64,000 bases of DNA, from the NCBI GenBank assembly GCA_016928025.1, contig JAFGLN010000023.1, forward strand, positions 1 to 64,000, written 5' to 3'. A program made the position numbers and the translations under genes. The first letter of the stretch is position 1, and each line of letters starts with the position of its first letter. Shown piece after piece: positions 6,402-52,696 of this stretch. Under the pieces are notes generated by a model that did not search any database, had not been told where the DNA came from, and saw nothing but the letters and a program-made list of their open reading frames with translations. The stretch is from Deltaproteobacteria bacterium (lineage in GTDB: Bacteria > Desulfobacterota > Syntrophia > Syntrophales > JAFGHS01).

Positions 6402-7080
6402 AATTTCTGACTCTGTTGATATTTTTTATCCACTTTTCCAATTCGGCAATGAACCTCATGGTTTTTTGCTTGTCCTGGCTACCTGTGGCATTTATTGGCG
6501 GATTTGTTATTTGATGCAGTCGATCGGCCGCCGTTTGATTGTCCGGTTCATTCCTCAGGATTTCTTTTAATATTTCGGCCGCCATGTCCGGATGACCCTG
6601 TCGAATATATAATTCGGCCATTGTCAGGGTCCGGAAATGGGGCGCTACCTGGTTGATGTTTTGGCTCTCCTCATCCCCGTTTTCTTTGGCCTCCGTTTTG
6701 GAGTTGTTGTGAAAGGAATGTAATATCTGACGTATCTTGGCTGCTTTACCGGATTTGGGATTAAGATAAAGGAATTTTTTGTAAGATAAAACAGCTTCCT
6801 GATATTGCTCCCTTCCCATTTGAATATCTCCCATATGGGCATATATTTTCGACAATTTGAGAAAGGTATCTTCCAATTCGTCAATGATCACGGCTGCATC
6901 ATCATGCCGTTCCATCTTCATCAAGATATCGCAGTACGTCATTTTTAAATCGATATCAAAGGGGAAGCGATTCAGCCGCTCAATGGTCTGGGACAAGGCC
7001 ATTTGATCCAACCCCCGGTCCAGATAACCATCGAGGTTGGAGAGAAAAGAGGCTCTTTCTTTGAGGTCGTCTTTTTTCAA
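6391..7080 (-). CDS. TPR-containing protein
   Basis: A 229-residue soluble protein with two or three tetratricopeptide-like units: DLKMTYCDILMKMERHDDA, MGREQYQEAVLSYKKFLYLNPK, and TLTMAELYIRQGHPDMAAEILKEILRNEP. These are protein-interaction modules without enzymatic residues. The start is TTG at 7080, decided by an AAGGAG six bases upstream. It overlaps the M24 peptidase gene by 11 bp. I do not recognise a specific family. The 320 bp upstream (7081-7402) hold no gene or clear signal apart from this ribosome site. Confidence 0.6.
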   Translation of the reverse strand: MKKDDLKERASFLSNLDGYLDRGLDQMALSQTIERLNRFPFDIDLKMTYCDILMKMERHDDAAVIIDELEDTFLKLSKIYAHMGDIQMGREQYQEAVLSYKKFLYLNPKSGKAAKIRQILHSFHNNSKTEAKENGDEESQNINQVAPHFRTLTMAELYIRQGHPDMAAEILKEILRNEPDNQTAADRLHQITNPPINATGSQDKQKTMRFIAELEKWIKNINRVRNYAA

Positions 7081-38767: not shown

Positions 38768-40213
38768 TTAAACCTTGGACCTTGTTCCTTGATTTTTCTC
38801 CTGCGTCACGGTCTTTAGTCCTTCAATAATGAATGAAAATTCCTTGTCGTCGATCGTTCGCAAATCCATCAAAACTTCATCGTCGGCGATTCGGACAATG
38901 ACCGGGATGTCAAGACGCCGGAGGTGCTCGTCAATCATATGACAAGACAGCCGGTCCGATGTCAGGGCGATGCAAAACGTTGGAATGTCCTCCATCGGAA
39001 GCGATCCGCCCCCCGAGCGGGAAATTCCCTTCCTCAGAGAGACATGAATTCCCGCAAGCTTTAATCGTCGGATGGCGGCAAGGAGTTTCCTGGCTTTCTT
39101 TTCCACCTGTTCGACCGGATCTGTCAGGGCCCGCAGAACTCTTGACCGGGAGCGGGCCGTTTCGGGATTGAGATATAACATCAGCGTTGCCTCCAGGGCG
39201 GCAAGGGTCAGTTTGTCAATGCGAAGCGCCCGGTTGAGGGCATTCTTCTTGATGTCTTGCAGGAGGGCTTTTTTGCCCAAGATGATGCCGGCCTGGGGAC
39301 CACCCAAAAGTTTGTCGCCGCTTAAGGTGACCACATCGGCGCCCGTTGCCAGGGCGTCCTGGACCGTCGGTTCCCTGATCAGCCCGTATTGGTCGAGTTC
39401 GAGGAAACAACCGCTGCCCAGATCGTTGAAGACGGGAATTCCGAAACGTTTTCCCAGGGCCACCAGGGTGAACAGGTCTATTTCTTCCGTAAAACCCAGG
39501 ATTTTATAATTGCTGGTATGCACTTTCAGGATCAATCCGGTATTTTCATGGATCGCTTTTTCGTAGTCCGCAAGGTGCGTGCGATTGGTTGTTCCGACTT
39601 CATGCAAAATGGCACCGCTCTTTTCCATGATTTCGGGGATGCGAAATTCCCCGCCGATTTCTATCAGCTCACCTCTCGAGACAATGACATCCTTACCGTC
39701 GGCCAGGGTGTTCAGAACCAACAGAACCGCGGCGGCGTTGTTATTCACCACAAGGGCATCTTGGGCACCCGATATGACGCAAAGGAGTCTTTGAACATGA
39801 TCGTAACGAAGACCGCGGCGCCCGGTTTTCAGATTGTATTCCAGATTTGAATACCCCGCGCCGATGTCCGAAAGCCTCCTGACGGCTTCATCGCAAAGCG
39901 GCGCCCGGCCCAGATTTGTATGCAGGATGACACCCGTGGCATTGATGACCCGTTTTAAATGGTATTGATGCAGGGCGTCGATGATTGCCGTCACATCCGC
40001 CAGAATGTCTTCTGCTTTCGGTGTCTGAAACGAATCCGGAGAGATATTTTCGGCTTTCATGATGCGATATCGCAGGTTTTCAACAACCGTGCGACAGGCC
40101 TCTTTGACAACGTCTTTCGGGGCTCTTTCGAATATATTTTCTTTTTCCAGATTTTGCATCATGCCGTCAATCTTCGGAAGGGTCTTCAGCAACGCTTTTT
40201 GGGTGTCGTTCAT
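38768..40213 (-). CDS. selA: L-seryl-tRNA(Sec) selenium transferase
   Basis: PLP enzyme that converts Ser-tRNA(Sec) to Sec-tRNA(Sec) using selenophosphate. The 481-residue product has LKRVINATGVILHTNLGRAPL, GYSNLEYNLKTGRRG, and SGDKLLGGPQAGIILG with the PLP lysine at about 301. GAAGG lies upstream of ATG 40213; an earlier in-frame ATG overlaps the lytic transglycosylase stop. selB and selC are not seen nearby, although they often follow selA. The fdhA gene in this window needs its product. Confidence 0.96.
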   Translation of the reverse strand: MNDTQKALLKTLPKIDGMMQNLEKENIFERAPKDVVKEACRTVVENLRYRIMKAENISPDSFQTPKAEDILADVTAIIDALHQYHLKRVINATGVILHTNLGRAPLCDEAVRRLSDIGAGYSNLEYNLKTGRRGLRYDHVQRLLCVISGAQDALVVNNNAAAVLLVLNTLADGKDVIVSRGELIEIGGEFRIPEIMEKSGAILHEVGTTNRTHLADYEKAIHENTGLILKVHTSNYKILGFTEEIDLFTLVALGKRFGIPVFNDLGSGCFLELDQYGLIREPTVQDALATGADVVTLSGDKLLGGPQAGIILGKKALLQDIKKNALNRALRIDKLTLAALEATLMLYLNPETARSRSRVLRALTDPVEQVEKKARKLLAAIRRLKLAGIHVSLRKGISRSGGGSLPMEDIPTFCIALTSDRLSCHMIDEHLRRLDIPVIVRIADDEVLMDLRTIDDKEFSFIIEGLKTVTQEKNQGTRSKV

Positions 40214-40237
40214 TTGCGGACCTTCAAAATGTTTCAT

Positions 40238-41383
40238 TCATTCCTGAAACGGTGGATCCTGAGTGGAGGTATTTGGATAGACAATCAGCTTTTCCCCGAC
40301 AAAAAGTTCCCTTGCCATGTCTAAGCGGTTCCAGACCAAAAGTGCGGGAAGCGGCACGTTGAAACTCGTGGCGATTGAGGAAAGACTGTCACCATCCTTG
40401 ACGGTATAAATGCTTTTTTTACTATCCTCCTGCCATTGGCGGAGAAGTTTTTCGTATTTAACATGGAAGCTTTCCGCGGCCCCTTCAGGAACGGCGATGC
40501 TGTGTTGACCCTTAACCAGGTAGTGTCCCCGGATTTCAGGATTCAGTTCCTTGATGACTTTAAAATAAGTATCCGCGGCTTCGGCGATGATCTGAACAGG
40601 CGTATCTTCGGAACACGTGATGTCCACTTGGTCAAAGGTCAGCAGAGGGTAAAAGTCTTTATTATTTAAGAAAAAACCGTATTGCCCCGGATTGCTGATG
40701 ATTAATTTGGCGGAAATGATCCTGAAGATATATCGCTGGGTTTCGATGGGCAAATATAACTGATAATAATCATTTACTTTCTGGATCAGGATCTCCGCTT
40801 TTAATCCCTCTTCTCCCATATTGTATGCGGAAGCCGCCAGTGTCCAGGATCCGAACATCCCGTGGAGGGTGTCGAGATAGCGGATCGCCGCATCGGTAGA
40901 CACAAAAATATTTCGGCGCTCGTCAATATGATCATCAATGGTCAGGTCGTACGTTTTCCCTGTGCCTTCCATGAACTGCCAGTATCCCATGGCGCCTTTT
41001 GGTGACCCGGCATAAGATAGGAGACTGCTTTCCACAATGACGAGATATTTTAAGTCATCCGGCATTCCGTTTTTTTTGAGCATCTTTTCGATATGGGGCA
41101 TATAGCGACTGGAACGTTTCAGCCAGAGAATGGTTTGGGGACGATTCCAGAGCATCAACATAAATTCTTTTTCGAATCGTTCGCGAACGTCCCGATTATG
41201 GAGCGGGACCGGCTCGCTGCAGAAATGAATCGGACCGTTGATCCGGATGGTGGAAAGCAGGGACGGAATATATTCGGATGTTGGGCGAATAGGCTCACTC
41301 CCGCAAGCCGCTTGCGTTGTTAGGATTCCCCAAAAGAGAATTGCCGAGAACCGGAAAAGAACAAGATGAGCAGCGCCCCTCAT
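40238..41383 (-). CDS. MltD-like lytic transglycosylase with LysM domain
   Basis: A secreted or periplasmic peptidoglycan-cleaving enzyme of 381 residues. An N-terminal signal segment (LFRFSAILFWGILTTQAACG, possibly a lipoprotein) is followed by an SLT domain with LVIVESSLLSYAGSPKGAMGYWQFMEGTG (catalytic Glu in VESS) and WTLAASAYNMGEEGL, and by a C-terminal LysM (IYTVKDGDSLSSIATSFNVPLPALLVWN). The stop abuts the selA start region, so it is in the S1-selA transcript, though its role is unrelated. Confidence 0.87.
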   Translation of the reverse strand: MRGAAHLVLFRFSAILFWGILTTQAACGSEPIRPTSEYIPSLLSTIRINGPIHFCSEPVPLHNRDVRERFEKEFMLMLWNRPQTILWLKRSSRYMPHIEKMLKKNGMPDDLKYLVIVESSLLSYAGSPKGAMGYWQFMEGTGKTYDLTIDDHIDERRNIFVSTDAAIRYLDTLHGMFGSWTLAASAYNMGEEGLKAEILIQKVNDYYQLYLPIETQRYIFRIISAKLIISNPGQYGFFLNNKDFYPLLTFDQVDITCSEDTPVQIIAEAADTYFKVIKELNPEIRGHYLVKGQHSIAVPEGAAESFHVKYEKLLRQWQEDSKKSIYTVKDGDSLSSIATSFNVPLPALLVWNRLDMARELFVGEKLIVYPNTSTQDPPFQE

Positions 41384-41386
41384 GGA

Positions 41387-42619
41387 TTATTCCTTTCTTT
41401 TTGCGGGAAATTTATCTTTCAGCAACTCCTGAAAGGATCCGAGAGATTTGGCGGGCTTGGATAAATACCGGCGATAGTCATCTTCGTCTTCTTTTGCCTT
41501 TCCTGGAGAATCGTCGTCACCTGAAGCCAGGGCCAGGGAGATGCGTTTGGAAGCTTTATCAACCGCCTCAATTTGGACGTTGAGAGATTGGTCGATTGTT
41601 AAAAACGGCTTCGAGCCTTTGACTTTCTTGTCTGCTTTGAGTTTGGAGATATGAAGCAGCCCGTCAATTCCCGCCTCCAGGGAAACGAACGCTCCGAATT
41701 TCGTCATGCTGGTCACTCTGCCCATATGGATCGTGCCCACGAGGTATTTTTTATCGACGTTATCCCATGGGTCGGCAAGGGTTTCTTTAAGGCTTAGAGA
41801 TATGCGATCACTGTCCCAGTCCAGTTTTAAAATGAGCGCTTCCACTTCCTGACCTACTGATAGATGTTCATTGATATCGGAAACCCGGGACCAGCCGATT
41901 TCGGAAATAGGAATCAGACCCTGGATGCCGCCGACATCCATGAAAGCGCCGAATTTCCTGATACTCGTGATTCTCCCTTTGACGGTCATTCCCTCCTGCA
42001 AAGACTGTTTCAGGAGCTCTTTGTGCTTTTTTTCCTCTTCCTTTAATATCTCTTTGCGCGACAGAATAATGTTCCTACCTTTTTCGCCATACTCCACGAT
42101 GTTGAATAAAAGGTGTTTTCCTATATAGTCATCGGGGGTTTCATCTTTTTTCAATCCCATTTGGGAATAGGGACAGAAACTGCGCATATCGCCCGCAATT
42201 TTAACCTCGTAGCCGCCCTTGATTTCTTTTTCGATAAAGCCTTCAATAGGAATGCCGTTTTGCCAGGCGTCTTCCAGATACGTCCGCCCCGCCTCACCGC
42301 CACCGACCTTGGTCGTGAAGAGTTTTTCATTGTTGCGCGAAGACAGAAAATACGCCCGAATTGTATCACCTTCCTTTAGATCGATATGACCGTCTTCATC
42401 ATTAAGTTCCCTTCGATCGAGGTAGCCTTCGCTTTTGCCGCCCAGGTCGAGAAAAATCCAGTCCGATGTGATTTTGACAATCTTTGCTTCCACTTTTTGG
42501 CCCGGTTGCAGCCAGTCTTTGCCGATTTCCGTTTCCGCCAGCAAGTCGGCGAAGCTCTTTGTTTCGTCTGTATCGGTTAATCCTTTTTGTTCGTTGTTCA
42601 TGTATTTCTCGTTATCCAT
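41387..42619 (-). CDS. S1-domain RNA-binding protein (RpsA-like)
   Basis: A 410-residue protein with four S1 motifs. Typical blocks are AKIVKITSDWIFLDLGGKSEGYLDRREL, KGRITSIRKFGAFMDVGGIQGLIPISEI and GRVTSMTKFGAFVSLEAGIDGLLHIS. It is shorter than a six-domain ribosomal S1, so it is probably an auxiliary S1-like protein acting in translation or RNA turnover. The start is ATG 42619 (MDNEKYM) rather than an in-frame ATG 48 bp upstream. It is the first gene of the selA operon. The 220 bp upstream show AT-rich sequence only. Confidence 0.75.
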   Translation of the reverse strand: MDNEKYMNNEQKGLTDTDETKSFADLLAETEIGKDWLQPGQKVEAKIVKITSDWIFLDLGGKSEGYLDRRELNDEDGHIDLKEGDTIRAYFLSSRNNEKLFTTKVGGGEAGRTYLEDAWQNGIPIEGFIEKEIKGGYEVKIAGDMRSFCPYSQMGLKKDETPDDYIGKHLLFNIVEYGEKGRNIILSRKEILKEEEKKHKELLKQSLQEGMTVKGRITSIRKFGAFMDVGGIQGLIPISEIGWSRVSDINEHLSVGQEVEALILKLDWDSDRISLSLKETLADPWDNVDKKYLVGTIHMGRVTSMTKFGAFVSLEAGIDGLLHISKLKADKKVKGSKPFLTIDQSLNVQIEAVDKASKRISLALASGDDDSPGKAKEDEDDYRRYLSKPAKSLGSFQELLKDKFPAKRKE

Positions 42620-42839
42620 ATCCGTTCCCTTGCCGGGTTTTTGACTTATTATATATGAAGAATGCATTGGGATGTCAATGAGATGACACGCCTAATGAAA
42701 TAAATGGTTCTTGTGGCATGGGTTTTATACTGTAAAATATAAGATTTATTATGTGTGTAAAAATAAAATTTTTCCATTTCGATTGCACATCTTGGAATGG
42801 GAGAAAAAAGGAACAGATCATGAAGGAGAAAGAGATGCT

Positions 42840-43172
42840 TTAATCTTTCATCAATGATGTTAGCTTGCTTCCGCTTTTGACCAGCAACTGTTCAAAAGCC
42901 TTTTCCAATTTTTCGTATTCCGTTAAAATGTCTTTTGCTTCTTCTGTCAGCCGCATACCTCTTTTCAGCGGATCGACGATGACGATCTTTTTCCCCAACC
43001 GCTCTTCGGATGCTTTGAGGCGCCCCCAGGCGGCTCGATAGGACATATTCAATTTTTCGGCCGCCGCTTTGAGGCTTTTGCATTCATCAATGGCGTGGAA
43101 GAGCTCCTTGCGGCCTTTTCCAAAGATGACCTTATGATCATGTTCGAGCCAGATTTTATATTTTATTTCCAT
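42840..43172 (-). CDS. ModE-like winged-helix repressor without a molybdate domain
   Basis: A 110-residue DNA-binding protein. The KYKIWLEHDHKVIFGKGRKELFHAI start and the helix-turn-helix SLKAAAEKLNMSYRAAWGRLKASEERLG match the N-terminal domain of ModE. The GMRLTEEAKDILTEYEKLEKAF wing and dimer helix follow. The C-terminal Mop/TOBE molybdate-binding pair is missing, so either another ligand or a different sensor is used, or it binds DNA constitutively. It is divergent from fdhA, separated by about 700 bp that contain three palindromes. The likely role is repression or activation of fdhA and the neighbouring molybdoenzyme; this is inferred from context. Confidence 0.75.
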   Translation of the reverse strand: MEIKYKIWLEHDHKVIFGKGRKELFHAIDECKSLKAAAEKLNMSYRAAWGRLKASEERLGKKIVIVDPLKRGMRLTEEAKDILTEYEKLEKAFEQLLVKSGSKLTSLMKD

Positions 43173-43355
43173 CACGTTACTTCATAATGCATATTTCAAT
43201 TTTGATCAATATAAAAAAATCTCCCTCATTGCGAGCTTTTTCTCATCAATTCCGACCATTTTCATTTGGGTAAAGCGACCTTGAGGAACGGATAAAAAGC
43301 GCGGCATCGTGGAACCATGATCGATCAAACAGATGCGTGATATGACAAAAAATAC

Positions 43356-43417
43356 TTGACAGTCCCCTGAAAAGAAAATATGTGATCGCTATCGTTTATA
43401 TGTCTTATCTGGCATAT
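43356..43417 (+). promoter_or_regulatory. Promoter P1 with operator palindrome, upstream of the fdhA leader
   Basis: TTGACA (43356) and TATGTG (43379) are spaced by 17 bases. They are followed by ATATGTC-N6-GGCATAT at 43398-43417, with one mismatch in seven base pairs, placed just after the expected transcription start. The sequence CGCTAT lies between. Its direction points into a stretch without a convincing gene. Confidence 0.5.
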
Positions 43418-43447
43418 GAACCGTCATATTTTCGAGTCAGCTGGTGT

Positions 43448-43652
43448 CGGGCGGTTTTATCATGCCCGGTTCTGAAAATACCGCGTCATCATTCGCACTT
43501 GCGGTTCGATGACACATTATATGAGAGCTTTGAAGAAAGAACGCCCGGCTTTCTGTATGATAGGCGTGGAGGCCTAATCGCACGGGAAACTCCCCGCATA
43601 TCTTTTGCGCTCCTCAGAAAGTTACCGGTGCGTAACCATTCGAAGCTCTCAT
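43448..43652 (+). ncRNA. Candidate structured RNA / long leader upstream of fdhA
   Basis: The stretch folds repeatedly in RNA form: CGGGC/GCCCG at 43448-43468; ACCGC/GCGGT and GTCATC/GATGAC at 43480-43513, which cross and so are alternatives or a pseudoknot; and a 14-bp closing stem, 43521-43534 with 43639-43652 (one G-U pair). The closing stem encloses ACGCC/GGCGT, CGGG/CCCG and GTTAC-CGGTGC-GTAAC hairpins. A T-rich run follows. The interval 43176-43874 contains no gene that I believe in; a GTG-initiated frame at 43382-43774 lacks a ribosome site. I do not recognise the motif as a known riboswitch. Confidence 0.4.
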
Positions 43653-43770
43653 TATTTTTCTTAAAATATGGTGCGGTGCCCACTTTGTTTTTATCATTTC
43701 CGACTTCAATCCAGCAATTTTACATTTCAAGATGTTATCATAAAAAAGTGATGGATTCCATTCTTAGGTG

Positions 43771-43830
43771 TTGACTTCTTGTAGCCGGATATTGTAAAAG
43801 TCGACACGCTATATGTCTTAAATGACATAA
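43771..43830 (+). promoter_or_regulatory. Promoter P2 of fdhA with operator palindrome
   Basis: TTGACT (43771) and TGTAAA (43793) are spaced by 16 bases. TATGTC-N6-GACATA at 43812-43829 is a perfect palindrome covering the expected start of transcription. The layout repeats P1 almost exactly. A repressor bound here would block initiation. Confidence 0.55.
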
Positions 43831-43831
43831 G

Positions 43832-43851
43832 ATATGCTACAAATAGCATAT
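43832..43851 (+). promoter_or_regulatory. Second palindrome in the fdhA leader
   Basis: ATATGCTA-CAAA-TAGCATAT has perfect 8-bp arms and lies 2 bp after the P2 operator and 23 bp before the fdhA start. It could be a second protein site or a small RNA hairpin near the ribosome site. Its half-site differs from the TATGTC motif. Confidence 0.45.
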
Positions 43852-43874
43852 TAACTATCTCTTTGGAGGCGGTT

Positions 43875-46574
43875 ATGGGTGATACCTTTATGTTGAATGG
43901 GAAAGAAGTTGAATTTAAAAAGGATGATACGATCCTGGATGCGGCCAAACGTGTGGGAGTGGAAATTCCGACACTTTGTTTTCTGAAAGGGGCTACACCG
44001 ACAGGGGCCTGCCGTATGTGTCTGGTGGAGGTTGTTGGTGGGCGAGCATTAATGACGGCCTGTTCCACACCGGTGACGAAGGGGATGGAAGTCATCACGG
44101 ACAGCGAGCGTGTTCACAAAGCGCGAAAAATGAATGTCGAGTTGCTTCTGAGCAGCGGCAAGCATGATTGCATAGTTTGCGAAGCCAACGGTTGCTGCCG
44201 CCTGCAGGACCTGGCCTACTTTTATGGCATCAAAGAACCCCGTTTCACACAGACGCCGGTGGAAGAGCTATACCCGGTCGAAGATGTGAACCCTTTTATC
44301 GTTCGTGACTTCAGCCGCTGTATCCTATGCGGACGATGTGTTCAGGCCTGTAATGAAGTGGTGGTCAACCGAGCCATCAGCTATGGCTATCGCGGTTCGG
44401 CCAACAAGATCGTGACCGGTGGTGACCTGCCTTACAACGATTCCGAATGTGTGTTTTGCGGTCAGTGTGTTGAGGTCTGTCCGGTTGGCGCCTTGACGGA
44501 GAAAAAAGCCAAGGGGCTGGGACGGCCCTGGGAGGTCGAGAAAATACGTACCACCTGTCCATACTGCGGCGTCGGTTGCCAGCAGTGGCTCCATGTGAAA
44601 GACGGCAAAATCGTAAAGGTTACGGCCGTTGAAAACGCCGAACCCAACCAGGGACGTTTGTGTATCAAAGGCCGTTTCGGCTACGATTTTATTTATTCCG
44701 AAGATCGACTTAAAACTCCCCTCATCCGCGAGAACGGCAAATTTCGAGAGGCCTCCTGGGATGAAGCCCTTGATCTGGTTGCGGCGAAGTTCAAGGACAT
44801 CATGGAGCAGCATGGCCCGGACGCCATTGCCGGTGTCAGTTGTGCCCGAAGCATCAATGAGGATTCCTATCAGATGCAGAAGCTCTTTCGCGCCACTTTT
44901 GGAACAAATAATATCGATCATTGTGCCCGTACTTGACACGCTCCGACGGTCGCCGGTCTGGCGACCTCTTTTGGTTCGGGTGCCATGACAAATTCGTTTG
45001 CCGACTTCAAAAAAGCCCAGATGATTTTTGTCATCGGCTCTAACATGACAGAAGCCCATCCGGTCGCGGCTACGTTTGTCAAACAGGCCGCCATTAATGG
45101 CGCCCAGCTGATTGTTGTTGATCCCCGCCGCACGGGCCTTGTGGATTTTGCGAACCTCCATGTGCCGATCAAAGTCGGTTCGGACATCGCGTTTCTCAAT
45201 GGCGTAATGAATGTTTTGATCAACGAAGATCTTTATGACAAAAAATATGTTGAGTCATGCACGGTTGGATTTGAAGATCTGAAAGCCAAGGTTATGGAAT
45301 ATCCGCCGGAGCGGGCCGCCGAGATCAGCGGTGTCAGCGCAGACACAATACGCGATGTGGCGCGGCGAATGGCATCCGTAAAACCCGCCATGCTCATGTA
45401 TACACTGGGTATCACCGAGCATATCTGTGGTGTTCGGAACGTCTTGTCCTGCGCCAATATGCAGATGCTTCTGGGTAACGTCGGTTTCGAATGCGGCGGT
45501 GTGAATCCCCTGCGGGGTCAAAACAACGTTCAGGGGGCCTGTGACATGGGCGCCTTGCCGAATGTTTTTCCCGGGTATCAACGTGTGGACAATCCCGAAG
45601 CTCGGGCGAAGTTCGCAGCCGCATGGAGTGTTGAAAAATTGCCGGAGAAGCCGGGCATGATGATTCCCCAGATGCTTGACGGTTTGCTTGACGGTAAGGT
45701 GAAGGGCTTCTACGTGTTCGGTGAAAACCTGGCCAATACGGAACCCGATATCCGGCACGTGGAAAAGTGTTTGAGTTCGGCGGAATTCCTGGTGTGCCAG
45801 GATATTTTTCCGACGGAGACGACGTGGTTTGCCCATGTCATTCTGCCGGCAGCCGCCTGGAGCGAGAACGACGGCACCTTCACGAACAGCGAACGACGCG
45901 TAAACCGGGTCCGCACGGCAAGCAAACCGCCGGGCGATGCCAAACCGAACTGGTGGATTTTCAAGGAAATTGCCAAACGGATGGGACAAAAATGGAAGTC
46001 GAACAGTGCCCGGGATATTTGGGACAAGGAAATTGCGCAACTGACACCGTCCATGGCCGGAATCAAGTATGCCCGGATCGAGAACGACGGCCTTCAGTGG
46101 CCTGTTCCGAGTGAAGACCATGCGGGAACGAGTTTCCTCCATGCGGAAGGTTGTTTCACCTGCGGTCTCGGTGCCCTGACGCCTGTGGACTGGGTGCCGC
46201 CCGCGGAGGTCCCGGATAAAGAATACCCATTGACCTTGAGCACGGGCCGGCGATTGTACCACTATCATACGCGGACACAGACAGGACGGTCTCCGGGGAT
46301 CGATGATCTGATGGGGGAAGAGACGGCCGACATTTCACCCATTGATGCCCGTGATCGCGGGATTCTTGACGGCGAAATGATCAGCGTCAAATCGCGGCGG
46401 GGCGAGGTGAATGTCAAGGCGAATGTTACGGATCGGATGCCCGAAGGAATGGTCTGGATGGCCTTTCATTTTCGGGAAGCCTGTGCCAACTGGCTCACGA
46501 ATCCGGCTTACGACCCCACTACGCAAACGGCGGAATATAAGGCCTGTGCCGTGCGCATTGACAAATTGAAATAA
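43875..46574 (+). CDS. fdhA: Selenocysteine-containing formate dehydrogenase, catalytic subunit
   Basis: Oxidises formate (or reduces CO2) at a molybdenum or tungsten bis-pterin site. The product is 899 residues with Sec354 encoded by TGA at 44934. Without recoding the gene appears as two ORFs, 43863-44936 and 44985-46574. Domains in order: a [2Fe-2S] domain (Cys35, 46, 49, 63), a His/Cys [4Fe-4S] segment (His97 to Cys108), two ferredoxin clusters (Cys149-159, Cys192-202), the molybdopterin 4Fe4S domain (CPYCGVGC, 228-235), and the pterin-binding domains. The Sec context is DHCART-U-HAPTVAGL. The size and cluster content match the NAD(P)-linked Moorella-type FdhA, whose Sec is at a similar position. 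GGAGG fixes ATG 43875. No FdhB-like partner is beside it. Confidence 0.93.
44934..44966 (+). promoter_or_regulatory. UGA codon and bacterial SECIS hairpin in fdhA
   Basis: The in-frame TGA (44934-44936) is followed after 11 bases by a perfect 7-bp stem, GGTCGCC (44948-44954) with GGCGACC (44960-44966), closed by the loop GGTCT. The spacing and the GGUCU loop match the E. coli fdhF SECIS element bound by SelB. The reading frame continues for 546 codons of conserved formate dehydrogenase sequence. Confidence 0.9.
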
Positions 46575-46581
46575 CCGGACT

Positions 46582-46629
46582 TTTTCCTGAAAGCGACCTC
46601 GCAAATCTGCAGAGGTGCTTTCAGGAAAA
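46582..46629 (+). terminator. Long hairpin after fdhA
   Basis: TTTTCCTGAAAGC pairs with GCTTTCAGGAAAA, and ACCTC with GAGGT, leaving one bulged base and a loop of about 11. It begins 8 bp after the fdhA stop. There is no T-run on its 3' side, so it may protect the mRNA 3' end or end transcription only partly. Confidence 0.5.
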
Positions 46630-46753
46630 GGGATGAGTGTTATTATCGCATAGAAATCATAGGGCAACAATACCTTTTATATGAGTTAGTACGGGAAATT
46701 TTTTCAGAGAAATCATTGCAGCTCAATATTACAATTAATCTGTTTCTTCGTTA

Positions 46754-46811
46754 TTGACTTCAAGTATTTCAAGATAGTATGAGTTTCTGGATATCTGTCA
46801 TTCTTGGCATA
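46754..46811 (+). promoter_or_regulatory. Promoter P3 with operator palindrome upstream of the molybdenum hydroxylase
   Basis: TTGACT (46754) and TATGAG (46778) are spaced by 18 bases. They are followed by TCTGTC-N6-GGCATA at 46794-46811, the same operator form as P1 (TATGTC-N6-GGCATA), again about 40 bases after the -35 start. The leader to the gene is about 240 nt; I see nothing else certain in 46630-47055. Confidence 0.45.
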
Positions 46812-47055
46812 GAATGATAAACGCTAAATCTCTTTTACGACAGAGAGACAGGACTGGGGAGGCTTATCGGATATTAACCGCGGTCATTCACAGGAAACAG
46901 CGGGATGGAAACAATTGTCGTTTTGAACTGTGCTGACAGGTAGATGCCTGGTTGAAATTGATCTATTTAATCTTGTTTAGGTGGTAGTGGATTCCGGCCA
47001 GCATCCGAAATGATAGGTAGGTTTTATTAAAAATATCGAGGAGGCGGAGGAGCAA

Positions 47056-49728
47056 ATGAAAGAAGTTAATCTGACAATCAATGGCGTTAAGAAGCAATTC
47101 ACTGTCGAGCCCGATTATGTGCTCCTTGATCTATTGCGTGAGGATTTGGGCCTGACCGGCGCCAAGCAGTCTTGTGACCGTAAGGGGCAATGCGGGGCCT
47201 GCATGGTCATCGTAGACGGAAAAGCCGTCCATTCCTGTTTAAAGAAGGTGGTCGATCTGGAAGGTGCTTCCGTCATTACCGTCGAGGGTCTGGGGACACC
47301 GCACAATCCGCACCTGATTCAGGAAGCCTATGTACTTTCCGGAGCCGTCCAATGCGGCTATTGCACACCGGGCATGATCATGGCTACCAAGGTGCTCCTC
47401 GATAAAAATCCCGATCCTGACGATGCGGCAATTAAAAGGGCTCTGGCCAGGAACCTTTGCCGCTGCACGGGCTACACTAAAATCATCGACGCCGTCAAGC
47501 TTGCTGCGCGGTTTCTCCGCAATGAAACAACGCCGGACGAATATCGCCAGAACATTGAGGCAGGCGCCATGGGCGTGTCCCATCCGCGGCCATCGTCGAT
47601 TCTAAAGGCCTGCGGCGTTGCCCAATTTACCGGAGACATCAAGATGCCGGGCATGATTGAGCTGGCTCTTGTCCATAGCACGGAACACCATGCGATTATT
47701 AAATCCATCGACACTCGGATGGCGGAGAAGATGCCGGGTGTCATCGGAATTATGCGGCCGGAGGATATCAAAGGGACCAACCGTATCCGGGTCATTGTGC
47801 CCGATCAGCCGGTTCTCTGTGAAGACAAGGTTCGAATTCTGGGTGATCCGCTTGTTGCCGTTGCCGCCGAGACGCGGGTCCAGGCCCGGGCCGCCGCCGC
47901 CGCGGTCAAGGTACAGTATGAGCCCCTGCCCGTTATGCTGACGCCGGCGGAAGCGTTGGCTCCGGATGCCCCGCAGATTCACACGCAGTTGCCTAATCTC
48001 TGTTTCTCTCAGCCTTTGATTAAGGGAGATGCCGAGGCAGCCCTGGGGGCATCGGCGGCCGTCGTCGCAGCTGAATTTTCAACGCAGATGAATCATCAGG
48101 CCCCCCTGGAGCCGGAAGCGTGTGTTGCCTATCTCGATGGCGAAGGCGAAAACGCCCGGCTGGTTGTGATCGGCCGGAGCATCAACATCCATTCCCATGC
48201 GGCACAGATTAAAGAAGCCGTTGGTTGGGAAAATATCCGCTACAAAGAAGCCTATTCCGGCGGTCAATTCGGTATCAAGGCGGCCGTCACCAGTGAGGCT
48301 GTCACCGCCGCGGCGGCCATGCATTTCAAACGGCCGGTCCGTTATATTCCAAGCCTTCAGGAATCAATCATTACGACGTCCAAAAGGCATCCCTATGAAA
48401 TGAAGCTGAAACTGGCTGCCGATGCCCAGGGCCATATCACGGCTTATGAAAATGATTTTACCATCAATAAAGGAGCGTACACTATTTTAGGTCCCATGGC
48501 CATATCGAGAAGCCTCCACATGCTCTCAGGGTCCTACCATATCCCCAACATTAATGCCCTGGGAAAACTAGTATATACCAATAACGGCTATGGCGGAGCC
48601 GCGAGGGGTGCCGGACCTCCCCAGACCATCTTTGCCCTCGAGTCGGCGGTGGACATGCTGGCGGAGAAGTTAGAAATCGATCCTTTGGAGTTCCGGCGCA
48701 GGAATTCTCTGCAACCGGGTGGGACGAAGGCCACCGGTATGGTTGCTGCTCAGTGGCCGTTTCCGGAGGTTTGTGACGCCATCAAACCTCACTATGACAG
48801 GGCCAAAAAAGAGGTGGAAGCTTTTAATCAAAAAAACGACAGGATCAAACGAGGTGTCGGCATTGCCGCTATGTCCTTTGGGATCGGCGGGAACGCTGAC
48901 CGGGCAAAGCTGGCCGTCGAGGTCGATCCGGATGACGGCATCACGATTTACGCCGCCGTTGCCGATCCGGGCGAAGGCAATGAGTCCATGCTAGCGCAGA
49001 TTGCTGCCCATGCCTTGGAGATGCCTCTGGAGAAAGTACGCCTCTACACGCGTGATACGGAAAAGACGTTTCCCGCCGGGCCTTCGGCGGGGAGCCGTCA
49101 GACCTGGATGGCGGGCGGTGCCTTGATGGATGCCATCCAGCAAATGAAGGAAGCTATGGAAGCAGTCGGATCGAAGACGTATGAAGGCCTGCAAAAGACA
49201 GGAAAACCAACCCGCTATGAAGGGCGCCGCAAGAACAAAGGCGAATTAATGCTTGATCCCAAAACCGGTCAGGGGGATTCATTTTTGTCCGAATGCCACA
49301 ATCTTCAGATGGTGGAGGCGGAAGTGAACACGGAAACCGGTGCGGTTGTGGTGAACAAGATTACGACCGTTGTGGACGCAGGGCCGGTAATCCATCCGCA
49401 GAATCTCGAGGGCCAGTTGGAGGGTGGGATGGACCAGGGCGTCGGCTACGCGCTCCGTGAAGAATATGTCCACGGCAAAACGAAAGATTATGTCAGCTTC
49501 AAATTTCCCACTATGCGGACCGCCTTCAAAACGGAGATTATCACGTTGGAAACACCTCGTATTGGCGGGCCCCTGGGAGCCACGGGCATCGGTGAGATGA
49601 CCATGGTGTCCACGGCGCCGGCGGTGATCAACGCCATCTATAATGCCTGCGGCGCCAGAATCTTCGATCTGCCGGCGACACCGGCCAAAGTGAAGGCGGC
49701 AATTGAGGCCAGGAACAAAACAATGTAA
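47056..49728 (+). CDS. Molybdenum hydroxylase, aldehyde oxidoreductase (Mop) type
   Basis: A single-chain xanthine-oxidase-family enzyme of 890 residues. Two [2Fe-2S] clusters are bound by Cys40, 46, 49, 61 and Cys100, 103, 135, 137; from about residue 170 the two molybdopterin domains follow, with GGQFGIKAAVTSEAV, GGAARGAGPPQTIFALE and the catalytic Glu847 in GATGIGE. Fused clusters without an FAD domain match Desulfovibrio gigas Mop (about 907 residues), which uses the cytosine dinucleotide cofactor. The downstream genes supply sulfuration, insertion and cytidylylation. GGAGGCGGAGGAG precedes the ATG. The substrate (aldehyde or N-heterocycle) is not decidable from sequence. Confidence 0.9.
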   Translation: MKEVNLTINGVKKQFTVEPDYVLLDLLREDLGLTGAKQSCDRKGQCGACMVIVDGKAVHSCLKKVVDLEGASVITVEGLGTPHNPHLIQEAYVLSGAVQCGYCTPGMIMATKVLLDKNPDPDDAAIKRALARNLCRCTGYTKIIDAVKLAARFLRNETTPDEYRQNIEAGAMGVSHPRPSSILKACGVAQFTGDIKMPGMIELALVHSTEHHAIIKSIDTRMAEKMPGVIGIMRPEDIKGTNRIRVIVPDQPVLCEDKVRILGDPLVAVAAETRVQARAAAAAVKVQYEPLPVMLTPAEALAPDAPQIHTQLPNLCFSQPLIKGDAEAALGASAAVVAAEFSTQMNHQAPLEPEACVAYLDGEGENARLVVIGRSINIHSHAAQIKEAVGWENIRYKEAYSGGQFGIKAAVTSEAVTAAAAMHFKRPVRYIPSLQESIITTSKRHPYEMKLKLAADAQGHITAYENDFTINKGAYTILGPMAISRSLHMLSGSYHIPNINALGKLVYTNNGYGGAARGAGPPQTIFALESAVDMLAEKLEIDPLEFRRRNSLQPGGTKATGMVAAQWPFPEVCDAIKPHYDRAKKEVEAFNQKNDRIKRGVGIAAMSFGIGGNADRAKLAVEVDPDDGITIYAAVADPGEGNESMLAQIAAHALEMPLEKVRLYTRDTEKTFPAGPSAGSRQTWMAGGALMDAIQQMKEAMEAVGSKTYEGLQKTGKPTRYEGRRKNKGELMLDPKTGQGDSFLSECHNLQMVEAEVNTETGAVVVNKITTVVDAGPVIHPQNLEGQLEGGMDQGVGYALREEYVHGKTKDYVSFKFPTMRTAFKTEIITLETPRIGGPLGATGIGEMTMVSTAPAVINAIYNACGARIFDLPATPAKVKAAIEARNKTM

Positions 49729-49738
49729 TACAAGGCTG

Positions 49739-49789
49739 AAGATCGGCAGGTCGACACCCATTTAATGATGTCGATCTGCCGATCTTTTT
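49739..49789 (+). terminator. Intrinsic terminator inside the hydroxylase gene cluster
   Basis: GATCGGCAG-G-TCGAC pairs with GTCGA-T-CTGCCGATC (15 bp with one G-U) around a loop of 14 and is followed by TTTTT. It ends 27 bp before the desulfurase start, too close for a separate promoter, so the maturation genes are probably expressed by partial read-through at a lower level than the enzyme. Confidence 0.8.
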
Positions 49790-49816
49790 GTTTGACGATT
49801 CCGCAAGTCATTTCAT

Positions 49817-51184
49817 ATGATGCCGGCCATGATTATTTCCCCCAAAGGTATATCCCTGGACATCATCCGTAACGATTTTCCGTCGTTAAGGAGGATGAGA
49901 GACGGAAAGCCGCCCATCTATTTCGATAACGCCTGTACAACTTTGGTGCCACAGCAGGTCATCCGCGCGATAACGGACTACTATGAACAACATCCGGCCT
50001 GCGGCGGTGGCCGAAGCCGCCACTGGTTTGCCGAAGAAGTGATCGCAGAAATTGACGGCGATGCGGCGGCGGAAATTGAAGGATCGCGCCAAATTATTGC
50101 GGACTTTATCAATGCCGGCTCCGAAAAAGAAATTGTCTTTACCGCCAATGCCAGTCATGCCATCAATATTGTGGCCCTGGGTTTTCCCTTCCGTCGTGGT
50201 GATGTCGTGCTGCTTACGGACCGGGAACATAATTCGAATCTTGTTCCCTGGCTGAGATTGCAGAATAAAGGATCGATCAGGGTTGATTATTGCGGGACGG
50301 GAGAGGATGGTGCTTTTGATCTTGAAGCCTTCCGGGGTAAGTTGGAAAGCGGCCCTGTCCGCCTGGTCAGCATGGCCTACACCTCGAATGTGACCGGCTG
50401 CACCCTGCCGGCCAAGGCGATCATCGACTTGGCCCATTGTTGCGGTGCCAGGGTCCTTCTGGATGCGGCCCAGACGGCGCCGCACCGGGCAATGGATGTT
50501 CAGGACCTGGATGTGGATTTCCTGGCCTTCTCCATCCACAAAATGTGCGGTCCCCGGGGCGTGGGTATCCTGTATGGCAAAGGAGCGCTTTTAAGGCAGG
50601 CCGAGCCCGGGATTGGCGATGACGGTGAAGATGCTATCGAACCGGTACTCCTGGGTGGCGGCGCGGTCCATGATGCGACCTATCAGGGTTATCGTCTTTT
50701 GGATCCGCCCGAGCGGTTTGAGGTCGGCGTGCAGAACTACGCAGGCCAGATTGCCGCCGGCGCCGCCGTGAACTATTTGCAGGCCATTGGAATGGACCGC
50801 ATTGACAAACGGGAAACCGAATTAAACGGCTTCCTGACTGAGGAACTGCTCAAGCGATACGGAGACACCGGCTGGTTCAGGATTATCGGTCCCCGCGAGG
50901 CGGCGCAAAGAGGCGGCCTCCTCACCTTCGAGATTAAAAGGCCCAATGCCGTGGGCATCACGGAGGAGCTGAGCGCCCGGAGCAGCATCATGATCCGCGA
51001 CGGTGTTTTTTGCGTTCATTCTTACTTCAACAAGCTCTACGGTGAGGGCTGGACCAGGCCGAAGCCGCCGTCGGAGCACAAAATGGTTTACCGTCTGTCT
51101 CTGTATTTTTACAACACCCTGGAGGAATGCCGGACGTTCCTGGACACGCTGCATGACATTTTTGAAGAACGCAGCTATATTTGA
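49817..51184 (+). CDS. Cysteine desulfurase (SufS/NifS4-like) for cofactor sulfuration
   Basis: A PLP enzyme of 455 residues with class II (SufS/CsdA-like) features: YFDNACTTLVPQQV, DREHNSNLVPW with the PLP-stacking His138, VLLDAAQTAPH, the PLP lysine Lys242 in SIHKMCGPRGVG, and the active cysteine Cys399 in RDGVFCVHS. No separate Suf or Isc operon is present; it lies between the hydroxylase and an IscU-like gene plus xdhC. In Rhodobacter capsulatus a dedicated NifS4 sulfurates the cofactor held by XdhC, and the same task is inferred here. Selenide delivery is an alternative. The start is ATG 49817 or 49829. Confidence 0.8.
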   Translation: MMPAMIISPKGISLDIIRNDFPSLRRMRDGKPPIYFDNACTTLVPQQVIRAITDYYEQHPACGGGRSRHWFAEEVIAEIDGDAAAEIEGSRQIIADFINAGSEKEIVFTANASHAINIVALGFPFRRGDVVLLTDREHNSNLVPWLRLQNKGSIRVDYCGTGEDGAFDLEAFRGKLESGPVRLVSMAYTSNVTGCTLPAKAIIDLAHCCGARVLLDAAQTAPHRAMDVQDLDVDFLAFSIHKMCGPRGVGILYGKGALLRQAEPGIGDDGEDAIEPVLLGGGAVHDATYQGYRLLDPPERFEVGVQNYAGQIAAGAAVNYLQAIGMDRIDKRETELNGFLTEELLKRYGDTGWFRIIGPREAAQRGGLLTFEIKRPNAVGITEELSARSSIMIRDGVFCVHSYFNKLYGEGWTRPKPPSEHKMVYRLSLYFYNTLEECRTFLDTLHDIFEERSYI

Positions 51185-51221
51185 TAGTTATCCGGTTTTT
51201 GCGAAACCGAAGCTCGTTATT

Positions 51222-51620
51222 ATGGATGAAGCCGTCATCAAATATTACCGCAAACTGTTGAGATCGGGCTTTAAGTATGCCGGCACCGTCGATAATCCCG
51301 ACATTTTCATCGACACCGTAAGCGAAAATGTTCCGCTCTGTGGCCATGCCGGCGACTACTTGCATCTTTACATCCATGTTCGGGACGGTAAAATTGCCGC
51401 CGCCAGGTATCTATGCACGTGCGAACCGACAACGAATGTCGTTGTGGAAATCCTTTGCGGTCTGGTTCAGAATAAAACCTTGGCGGAGGTTAAACAAATC
51501 AATGAAAATTTTTTTTCCGAAGAATTGGCCAGTGACGGCAAAGACCTGCGACACAAAGCCGCCGGTCTGCTGGAACTTCTGCACAGAGGACTGGATAGAT
51601 ATCTGGCGGAGAGAATCTGA
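51222..51620 (+). CDS. IscU/NifU-N-like scaffold protein with incomplete cysteine set
   Basis: A 132-residue protein with the NifU N-terminal fold: NPDIFIDTVSENVPLCGHAGDYLHLYIHVRDGKIAAARYLCTCEPTTNVVVEILCGLVQNKTL aligns with IscU around Cys40, Asp45 and Cys65/67. The third cluster ligand (Cys106 in IscU) is replaced: DLRHKAAGL keeps His111 but has Lys next to it. It follows the desulfurase by 37 bp and precedes xdhC. It may pass sulfur or selenium to the molybdenum cofactor rather than build Fe-S clusters. No clear ribosome site is seen before ATG 51222. Confidence 0.7.
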   Translation: MDEAVIKYYRKLLRSGFKYAGTVDNPDIFIDTVSENVPLCGHAGDYLHLYIHVRDGKIAAARYLCTCEPTTNVVVEILCGLVQNKTLAEVKQINENFFSEELASDGKDLRHKAAGLLELLHRGLDRYLAERI

Positions 51621-51637
51621 GATAAAGGAGTCATTGC

Positions 51638-52696
51638 ATGAACGATAACAAGTATCTTTTGAAAATGATCTGTGAAAAACTGGGAACAGAAGCGTCACTC
51701 GTTCTGGCCTCCATTGTCAGTATTGAGGGCTCGTCGCCCCGGCATGGGGGAGCGAAAATGATCGTCGACGAGCGGGGAAAAAGTTACGGAACCATCGGCG
51801 GCGGAGCAATGGAAGCGACAGTGATTAGGGAGGCGTCAAATGCCCTATCGACAAAGCAATCCTGCCTGATGCGCTTTGATTTGACCGGTGAAGACGCCTC
51901 CGCCAAAGACATGATCTGCGGCGGAACGGCCCTGGTTCTGCTGGACGTCGTTGAGGCAACGTCGGAGAATATTGCCTTCTTCCGGGGATTTCAGGAAGCA
52001 GTGCAGGCGGATAACAACGGCTGTTTTTATACGCTGTTTCGCGGCGCTGATCAGGCCGTCGATATCCTTGGCCGTACACTGTACATCCCCGGTAAGAAAA
52101 GCACCGGCACTTATGTCTGGCAAGAAACAGATCTGGAAAAGGTTATATCCGCCTCGAAAGGTCTTTCCACAGCAGAAGTCCTTTCCCTGGGGGCAGTGCG
52201 GGTTGTTCTGGATCCGGTTAGAAAAACGGAAACGCTTTACTGCTTCGGGGCGGGGCATGTGGCCCTGCCGGCGGCCCATATGGCTGCCCTGGTGGGATTT
52301 CGCGTCGTTGTCATCGATGATCGGGATGAGTTTGCCAACAGGGATCGCTTTCCCGAAGCCGACGAGGTTCGCGTTATCGAAGACTTCAACCACGCCCTGG
52401 ATGGGCTGCCCATCGACGCTGATTCATATATCGTAATTGTCACGAGGGGGCATGCCTTTGACCGGGTCGTTCTCGAACAGGCCTTAAAGACCAAAGCCGG
52501 CTACATTGGCATGATCAGCAGTCGTAAAAAAAGAGAGCAGATTTATTCGGCGTTGATGGAGGAGGGTGTGAGCAAGGAGGCGCTGGCGTTTGTTCATTCT
52601 CCCATCGGCATTCCCATCGGCGGCGATACACCGGAAGAAATTGCCGTCAGCATTGTTGCCGAGCTCATCGGCGAACGGTATAAGAGGAAGTCATGA
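51638..52696 (+). CDS. xdhC: XdhC-family molybdenum cofactor insertion protein
   Basis: A 352-residue protein with the N-terminal XdhC/CoxI domain (SIEGSSPRHGGAKMIVDERG, GTIGGGAMEATVI and DMICGGTALVLLD with conserved Cys94) and the C-terminal Rossmann domain (LYCFGAGHVALPAAHMAALVGFRVVVIDDRDEFANRDRFPEA). XdhC binds the molybdenum cofactor, holds it during sulfuration and inserts it into the hydroxylase. AAAGGAG precedes the ATG, and the stop overlaps the next gene by 4 bp (ATGA). Confidence 0.92.
   Translation: MNDNKYLLKMICEKLGTEASLVLASIVSIEGSSPRHGGAKMIVDERGKSYGTIGGGAMEATVIREASNALSTKQSCLMRFDLTGEDASAKDMICGGTALVLLDVVEATSENIAFFRGFQEAVQADNNGCFYTLFRGADQAVDILGRTLYIPGKKSTGTYVWQETDLEKVISASKGLSTAEVLSLGAVRVVLDPVRKTETLYCFGAGHVALPAAHMAALVGFRVVVIDDRDEFANRDRFPEADEVRVIEDFNHALDGLPIDADSYIVIVTRGHAFDRVVLEQALKTKAGYIGMISSRKKREQIYSALMEEGVSKEALAFVHSPIGIPIGGDTPEEIAVSIVAELIGERYKRKS

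Follow-up and report, generated by a model that had tools for sequence, protein, structure and literature searches.

A candidate orphan noncoding RNA between two putative operator-bearing promoters of a selenocysteine formate dehydrogenase gene

Among the closest described counterparts of the arrangement examined here is the moaA locus of E. coli, in which the Moco RNA is located downstream of a ModE-controlled promoter (PMC2408646), and a hallmark of this RNA is a GNRA tetraloop in P4 with its receptor in a bulge of P2 (PMC2408646). As is predicted for the locus described below, a ModE-type promoter is followed there by a multistem RNA that precedes Mo/W-related genes. ModE operator and regulator systems combine LysR-type HTH proteins similar to the ModE domain with operators at Mo/W enzyme genes that are palindromic and rich in AT, features that are also present here. 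Promoter-proximal small RNAs and attenuated leaders show the succession that is predicted for this locus, of promoter, structured body and stem followed by a U-tract, and the MITE-like long-hairpin intergenic repeats of Deltaproteobacteria share its intergenic position, its size (~130 nt) and a terminal inverted repeat. The locus also departs from each of these systems. Its regulator consists of the HTH only and falls under the cut-off of the ModE model; its structured domain is an orphan without an RF01055 (Moco/Tuco) match or GNRA tetraloop, and is separated from the gene by a second promoter and ~210 unstructured nt; a 104-nt branched domain replaces the short loop of the small RNAs and attenuated leaders, its ends being predicted from the sequence and no target being proposed; and, unlike the long-hairpin repeats, the domain is single-copy, unrelated in sequence and multibranched in its interior.

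We analyzed a window of 64,000 nt from an 86-kb contig of a genome with 89% completeness, belonging to an order that appears to be syntroph-related, with formate exchange central. The stretch of interest (43418-43770) lies between a ModE-like regulator gene on the minus strand (42840-43175) and the divergent gene fdhA on the plus strand (43875-46574). The regulator gene starts with GTG, with an ATG three bases in, and encodes a protein of 111 aa with an HTH domain only (Pfam HTH_1, 5e-12); against the ModE repressor domain model TIGR00637 this protein scores 46 bits (4e-12), below the 98.5-bit cut-off. The product of fdhA is a selenocysteine formate dehydrogenase alpha (TIGR01591, 836 bits, above cut-off) whose selenocysteine codon is the in-frame TGA at 44934-44936, as seen in the read-through translation, and the gene is preceded by a ribosome binding site, GGAGG, at 43865-43869. 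The closest fdhA matches in public genomes come from MAGs named Syntrophus, Smithella or Deltaproteobacteria, which makes a Syntrophales-like host probable. The surrounding region (38768-52696) is a selenium/molybdenum enzyme cluster in which selA-like, selenocysteine fdhA, aldehyde oxidoreductase, SufS-like and XdhC-type AOR maturation factor genes are grouped together.

A preliminary description of this DNA had placed the stretch between two fdhA promoters, and both are plausible. Putative promoter P1 (43356-43384, plus strand) reads TTGACA, 17 nt, TATGTG, which is identical in hexamers and spacing to the fdhA promoter of a related locus (L088); its -10 is poor, and it received no call in a consensus promoter scan that demands a T at position 6. 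Putative promoter P2 (43771-43799, plus strand) has TTGACT and a weak -10 around TGTAAA, and occupies the position of the promoter in relatives. Downstream of each is an exact match to TATGYC-N6-GRCATA, operator 1 (TATGTCTTATCTGGCATA, 43399-43416) and operator 2 (TATGTCTTAAATGACATA, 43812-43829), so that the sites flanking the element, at 43399 and 43812, match each other as TATGTC-N6-G[A/G]CATA. Only three exact sites of this kind occur in the 3.7-Mb genome. The third (L118 1501-1518, equivalent to G000:C69:3834-3851) lies beside genes resembling the NCBIfam families DVU_1556 (methyltransferase) and DVU_1553 (AMP-dependent ligase), which we take to be part of aldehyde-oxidoreductase maturation clusters. 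Both of these family matches are partial and fall in one 296-aa frame, which may represent a fused or a broken gene.

The presence of a regulator gene together with shared operators at Mo/W genes is the pattern of a ModE regulon. Of the 41 related loci examined, 23 carry an operator-type site, perfect or with a single mismatch, in the 100 nt that precede fdhA, and a homologue of the ModE-like gene adjoins fdhA in 15 of 80; together these counts make it likely that a ModE-type repressor or activator acts on fdhA, presumably by binding at these sites. TATGTC-N6-GACATA resembles ModE operators in being palindromic and AT-rich, and a literature search for the regulator TunR returned nothing usable. 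Some insight into the history of the region comes from a locus with the same divergent modE-fdhA arrangement (L032), where the intergenic gap measures 219 nt versus 700 nt in the window. It has one promoter-type operator before fdhA and a second operator match at the 3' end of modE, and its gap contains no structured domain and no special fold. From this comparison P2 looks ancestral, whereas P1 would have been added in this lineage along with its operator and the folded domain, and the shared TATGTCTTA suggests a duplication of promoter and operator.

The stretch had been described as strongly folded, and its fold is indeed far beyond chance. On the plus strand, the 146 nt at 43515-43660 reach -56.1 kcal/mol where shuffles average -34.9 (sd 3.7), a z of -5.72 equalled by 0 of 200 shuffles. 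The domain also had the lowest z among 852 stretch/strand combinations scanned across the 64-kb window, although the value of -8.35 obtained for the domain in that scan is rough, with 24 shuffles for each combination. The whole 353-nt region (43418-43770) has a z of -3.70, and the sequences to either side of the domain fold ordinarily (43425-43515, z -1.3; 43660-43800, z +0.1). The domain itself (43521-43652, plus strand) is bounded by the 14-bp closing stem of the preliminary description, found at the same positions, in which 43521-43534 (ATGAGAGCTTTGAA) is paired with 43639-43652 (TTCGAAGCTCTCAT) through 13 Watson-Crick pairs and one T-G; its formation is near-certain, with a pair probability of 0.76-1.0 whether the P1 transcript or a transcript reaching fdhA is folded. 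The three short hairpins said to be enclosed by this stem are present (43559-43579, 43584-43594 and 43595-43609), but they are joined to it by a feature absent from that account, a 15-bp inner stem (43541-43555 with 43615-43633, bulged at 43622-43624 and 43629) that connects the closing stem to a three-hairpin multiloop junction. The 44 pairs of the domain include 43 Watson-Crick pairs and 1 G-U, and the predicted loops are GTGGAG, AAC and TATCTTT.

Upstream of the domain, at 43480-43513 of the plus strand, two stems of 5-6 bp had been proposed as mutually exclusive or pseudoknotted. Both pairings are real (ACCGC 43480-43484 with GCGGT 43501-43505, or GTCATC 43485-43490 with GATGAC 43508-43513), within a hairpin region (43478-43515) of modest fold (z -2.6). 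Because ACCGC and GTCATC abut, with zero nucleotides in between, formation of a complete pseudoknot is unlikely, and mutual exclusion is the better reading.

The non-coding character of the stretch, also proposed previously, was evaluated against a GTG-initiated open frame at 43382-43774 that would encode a small protein of 130 aa. Its length (142 codons from stop to stop) is reached by 41 of 4000 dinucleotide shuffles (1%), which speaks for this alternative. However, the codon score of the frame is -0.12, compared with +0.14 to +0.27 for genes, GC is flat across codon positions, and the strong RNA fold sits inside the frame. No Pfam family was matched, and a protein search of 155 genomes gave two chance-level matches alone. 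With neither coding statistics nor conservation behind it, the protein-coding reading was rejected, and a small protein gene appears highly improbable.

Membership in the Moco riboswitch family, defined by a covariance-model score of at least 36 bits for RF01055, would be in keeping with the Mo/W enzyme context and with the presence of such RNAs in the order, where our positive control detected them in 41 of 155 genomes. The preliminary description had judged the stretch unlike this family and had called for an Rfam search, and the search agrees with that judgement: there was no match in the stretch at gathering thresholds, and at E up to 5 the 701-nt search returned two chance-level minus-strand matches alone, neither of them RF01055. 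There is also no Moco riboswitch in the whole host genome or in its congener, and the defining GNRA tetraloop is not found among the predicted loops of the domain. Identity with RF01055 is ruled out at the level of sequence and structure, leaving a divergent Moco riboswitch with a probability close to nil. At another fdhA locus (L029), a Moco riboswitch (6433-6551, 71.6 bits) lies downstream of fdhA, beyond the adjoining ModE-like gene.

To look for relatives of the domain we used a covariance model consisting of the single sequence and its fold, for which the self-match in the window scores 188 bits. The window's copy alone was recovered from 155 genomes of the order (the class search covers the same 155) and, at E up to 10, from the host genome and its congener, while no homologue was found in 395 genomes of the phylum or in 84 fdhA-related loci; the multi-genome searches used stricter filters, and a one-sequence model is expected to miss homologues much under ~60% identity. 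The model gave just two further matches, the minus strand of the window itself (E 0.27) and a site in L073 (E 0.67). The latter sits at a terminator-like hairpin that follows the upstream one of two tandem fdhA copies. Of these copies (L073 6-4063), the second has a Cys codon at the selenocysteine position (NIDHCARVC). DNA similarity searches revealed no second copy in the host genome, no copy in the congener and chance-level matches of 20-43 bp in the order; plasmids, phages and a single pattern scan of viral contigs yielded nothing. A further locus, L031, can be aligned to the window at 43768-43831 only, and where the sequence ahead of fdhA is structured, as in L012, L022, L046 and L073, it seems to consist of unrelated hairpins, terminators or a repeat.

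The domain is an element without detected relatives across the order, the sampled phylum, the congener and the fdhA loci, and it shows neither a junction that is conserved nor a gene with which it is recurrently associated. Covariation evidence is absent because there are no homologues, rather than because of contrary evidence. The lack of any conservation is what would be seen if the sequence were non-functional, a remnant of rearrangement or promoter duplication that folds well by chance, and with thousands of intergenic stretches per genome some extreme folds should arise in any case. The counterarguments are the lowest z of 852 stretches, the 0 of 200 shuffles, the position between two putative operator-bearing promoters and the U-tract that follows the stem, and we regard a chance fold as rather improbable.

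A second explanation considers the element at the DNA level, as a MITE-like or other mobile palindrome inserted between two promoter copies, with RNA folding as a by-product. The minus strand of the domain also folds well (z -3.8, compared with -5.7 for the plus strand), because the DNA is near-palindromic, and the 14-bp inverted repeat is flanked on either side by a 3-bp TAT, possibly a target duplication. Since G-U pairs are nearly absent (1 of 44) and the distribution is patchy, the element being missing from the congener and from the syntenic L032, a palindrome at the DNA level, or the remnant of a mobile element, has to be taken seriously as a rival. A long-hairpin intergenic element is also found upstream of fdhA in L012 (545-694, z -5.0); it perhaps resembles what we presume to be repetitive, MITE-like long-hairpin intergenic repeats of Deltaproteobacteria. 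MITE-like elements are recognized by multiple copies or matching terminal repeats; here the domain is present once in the 89%-complete genome, and no other terminal-repeat pair occurs in it, with two single matches at one mismatch where the control gave 2-3. The searches of plasmids, phages and viral contigs likewise speak against mobility, and the bulges and three-hairpin junction exceed the elaboration usually seen in a simple palindrome. On balance we consider this explanation unlikely, though less so than a chance fold.

Riboswitch aptamers are conserved, and the previously suggested cofactor-, formate- or selenium-sensing leader finds no support in our results. In such a reading the domain would act in cis and found a new class of riboswitch-like leaders, binding a Mo/W cofactor, a selenium compound or formate and thereby altering how far P1 transcripts read through into fdhA. 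The multistem junction between two long helices is compatible with this, as is the position after a ModE-type promoter and before a Mo/W selenocysteine enzyme, a layout comparable to that of E. coli moaA with its ModE-activated promoter and Moco RNA (PMC2408646). However, no aptamer conserved across species emerged from the 155 order and 395 phylum genomes or from other fdhA leaders. P2 would bypass the domain, and the fdhA start lies beyond a further ~210 unstructured nt. No expression platform is visible at fdhA, and no second terminator or RBS-sequestering hairpin is seen. The sensing leader would be a quite unlikely interpretation, and more doubtful still is a broader version, a previously undescribed class of structured RNA under ModE-type control, seen so far in one lineage, that would either sense Mo/W, selenium or formate or serve as a small RNA acting on Mo/Se enzymes.

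The reading that we tentatively prefer, at a confidence a little short of even, is an orphan, lineage-specific noncoding transcription unit under ModE-type control, located upstream of the ancestral fdhA promoter. Transcription would start from P1, through its own ModE-type operator, near 43391, and the domain at 43521-43652 would form in the transcript. Most transcripts would then end at the closing stem and the U-tract that comes straight after it (TTATTTTTCTT, 43652-43662, plus strand), yielding a stable structured product of ~270 nt, either a short RNA or an attenuated leader, while some would continue into fdhA. P2 has an operator copy of its own and would drive fdhA independently. A P1 transcript ending mostly near the candidate termination point at 43662 is the most economical interpretation because the U-tract adjoins the stem and the ~210 nt beyond are unstructured. 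Because the U-tract directly follows the closing stem, a small RNA, the other suggestion of the preliminary description, would fit the anatomy somewhat better than a sensing leader. The better folding of the plus strand than of the minus strand supports this noncoding unit, while the absence of homologues and hence of covariation, the poor -10 of P1 and its lack of a promoter call argue against it. The loop of the closing stem is also large and structured, unlike that of a textbook intrinsic terminator; our terminator scan covers loops of 3-8 nt, and the 104-nt loop of the domain lies outside this range.

That P1 is transcribed, that the ModE-like protein exerts control, that transcripts terminate at the U-tract and that the RNA has a function are all inferred from the sequence, and we regard the locally striking element overall as a well-founded candidate for an orphan noncoding RNA. 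Predicted antisense pairing to the starts of fdhA and ten neighboring genes was at chance level (z -1.3 to +1.6), and no target is proposed for this reason. If transcribed as predicted, the element would be an orphan regulatory RNA connected with the way in which molybdenum/tungsten controls a selenocysteine formate dehydrogenase, and the locus would have two operator-bearing promoters of which only one gives a transcript that carries the RNA.

Elsewhere in the enzyme cluster, a stretch at 49665 ranks second lowest in the window by folding z. Straight after the stop of the aldehyde oxidoreductase gene (49728) lies an 18-bp inverted repeat with 94% identity (49739-49786), which is probably a terminator or attenuator preceding the SufS-like gene.
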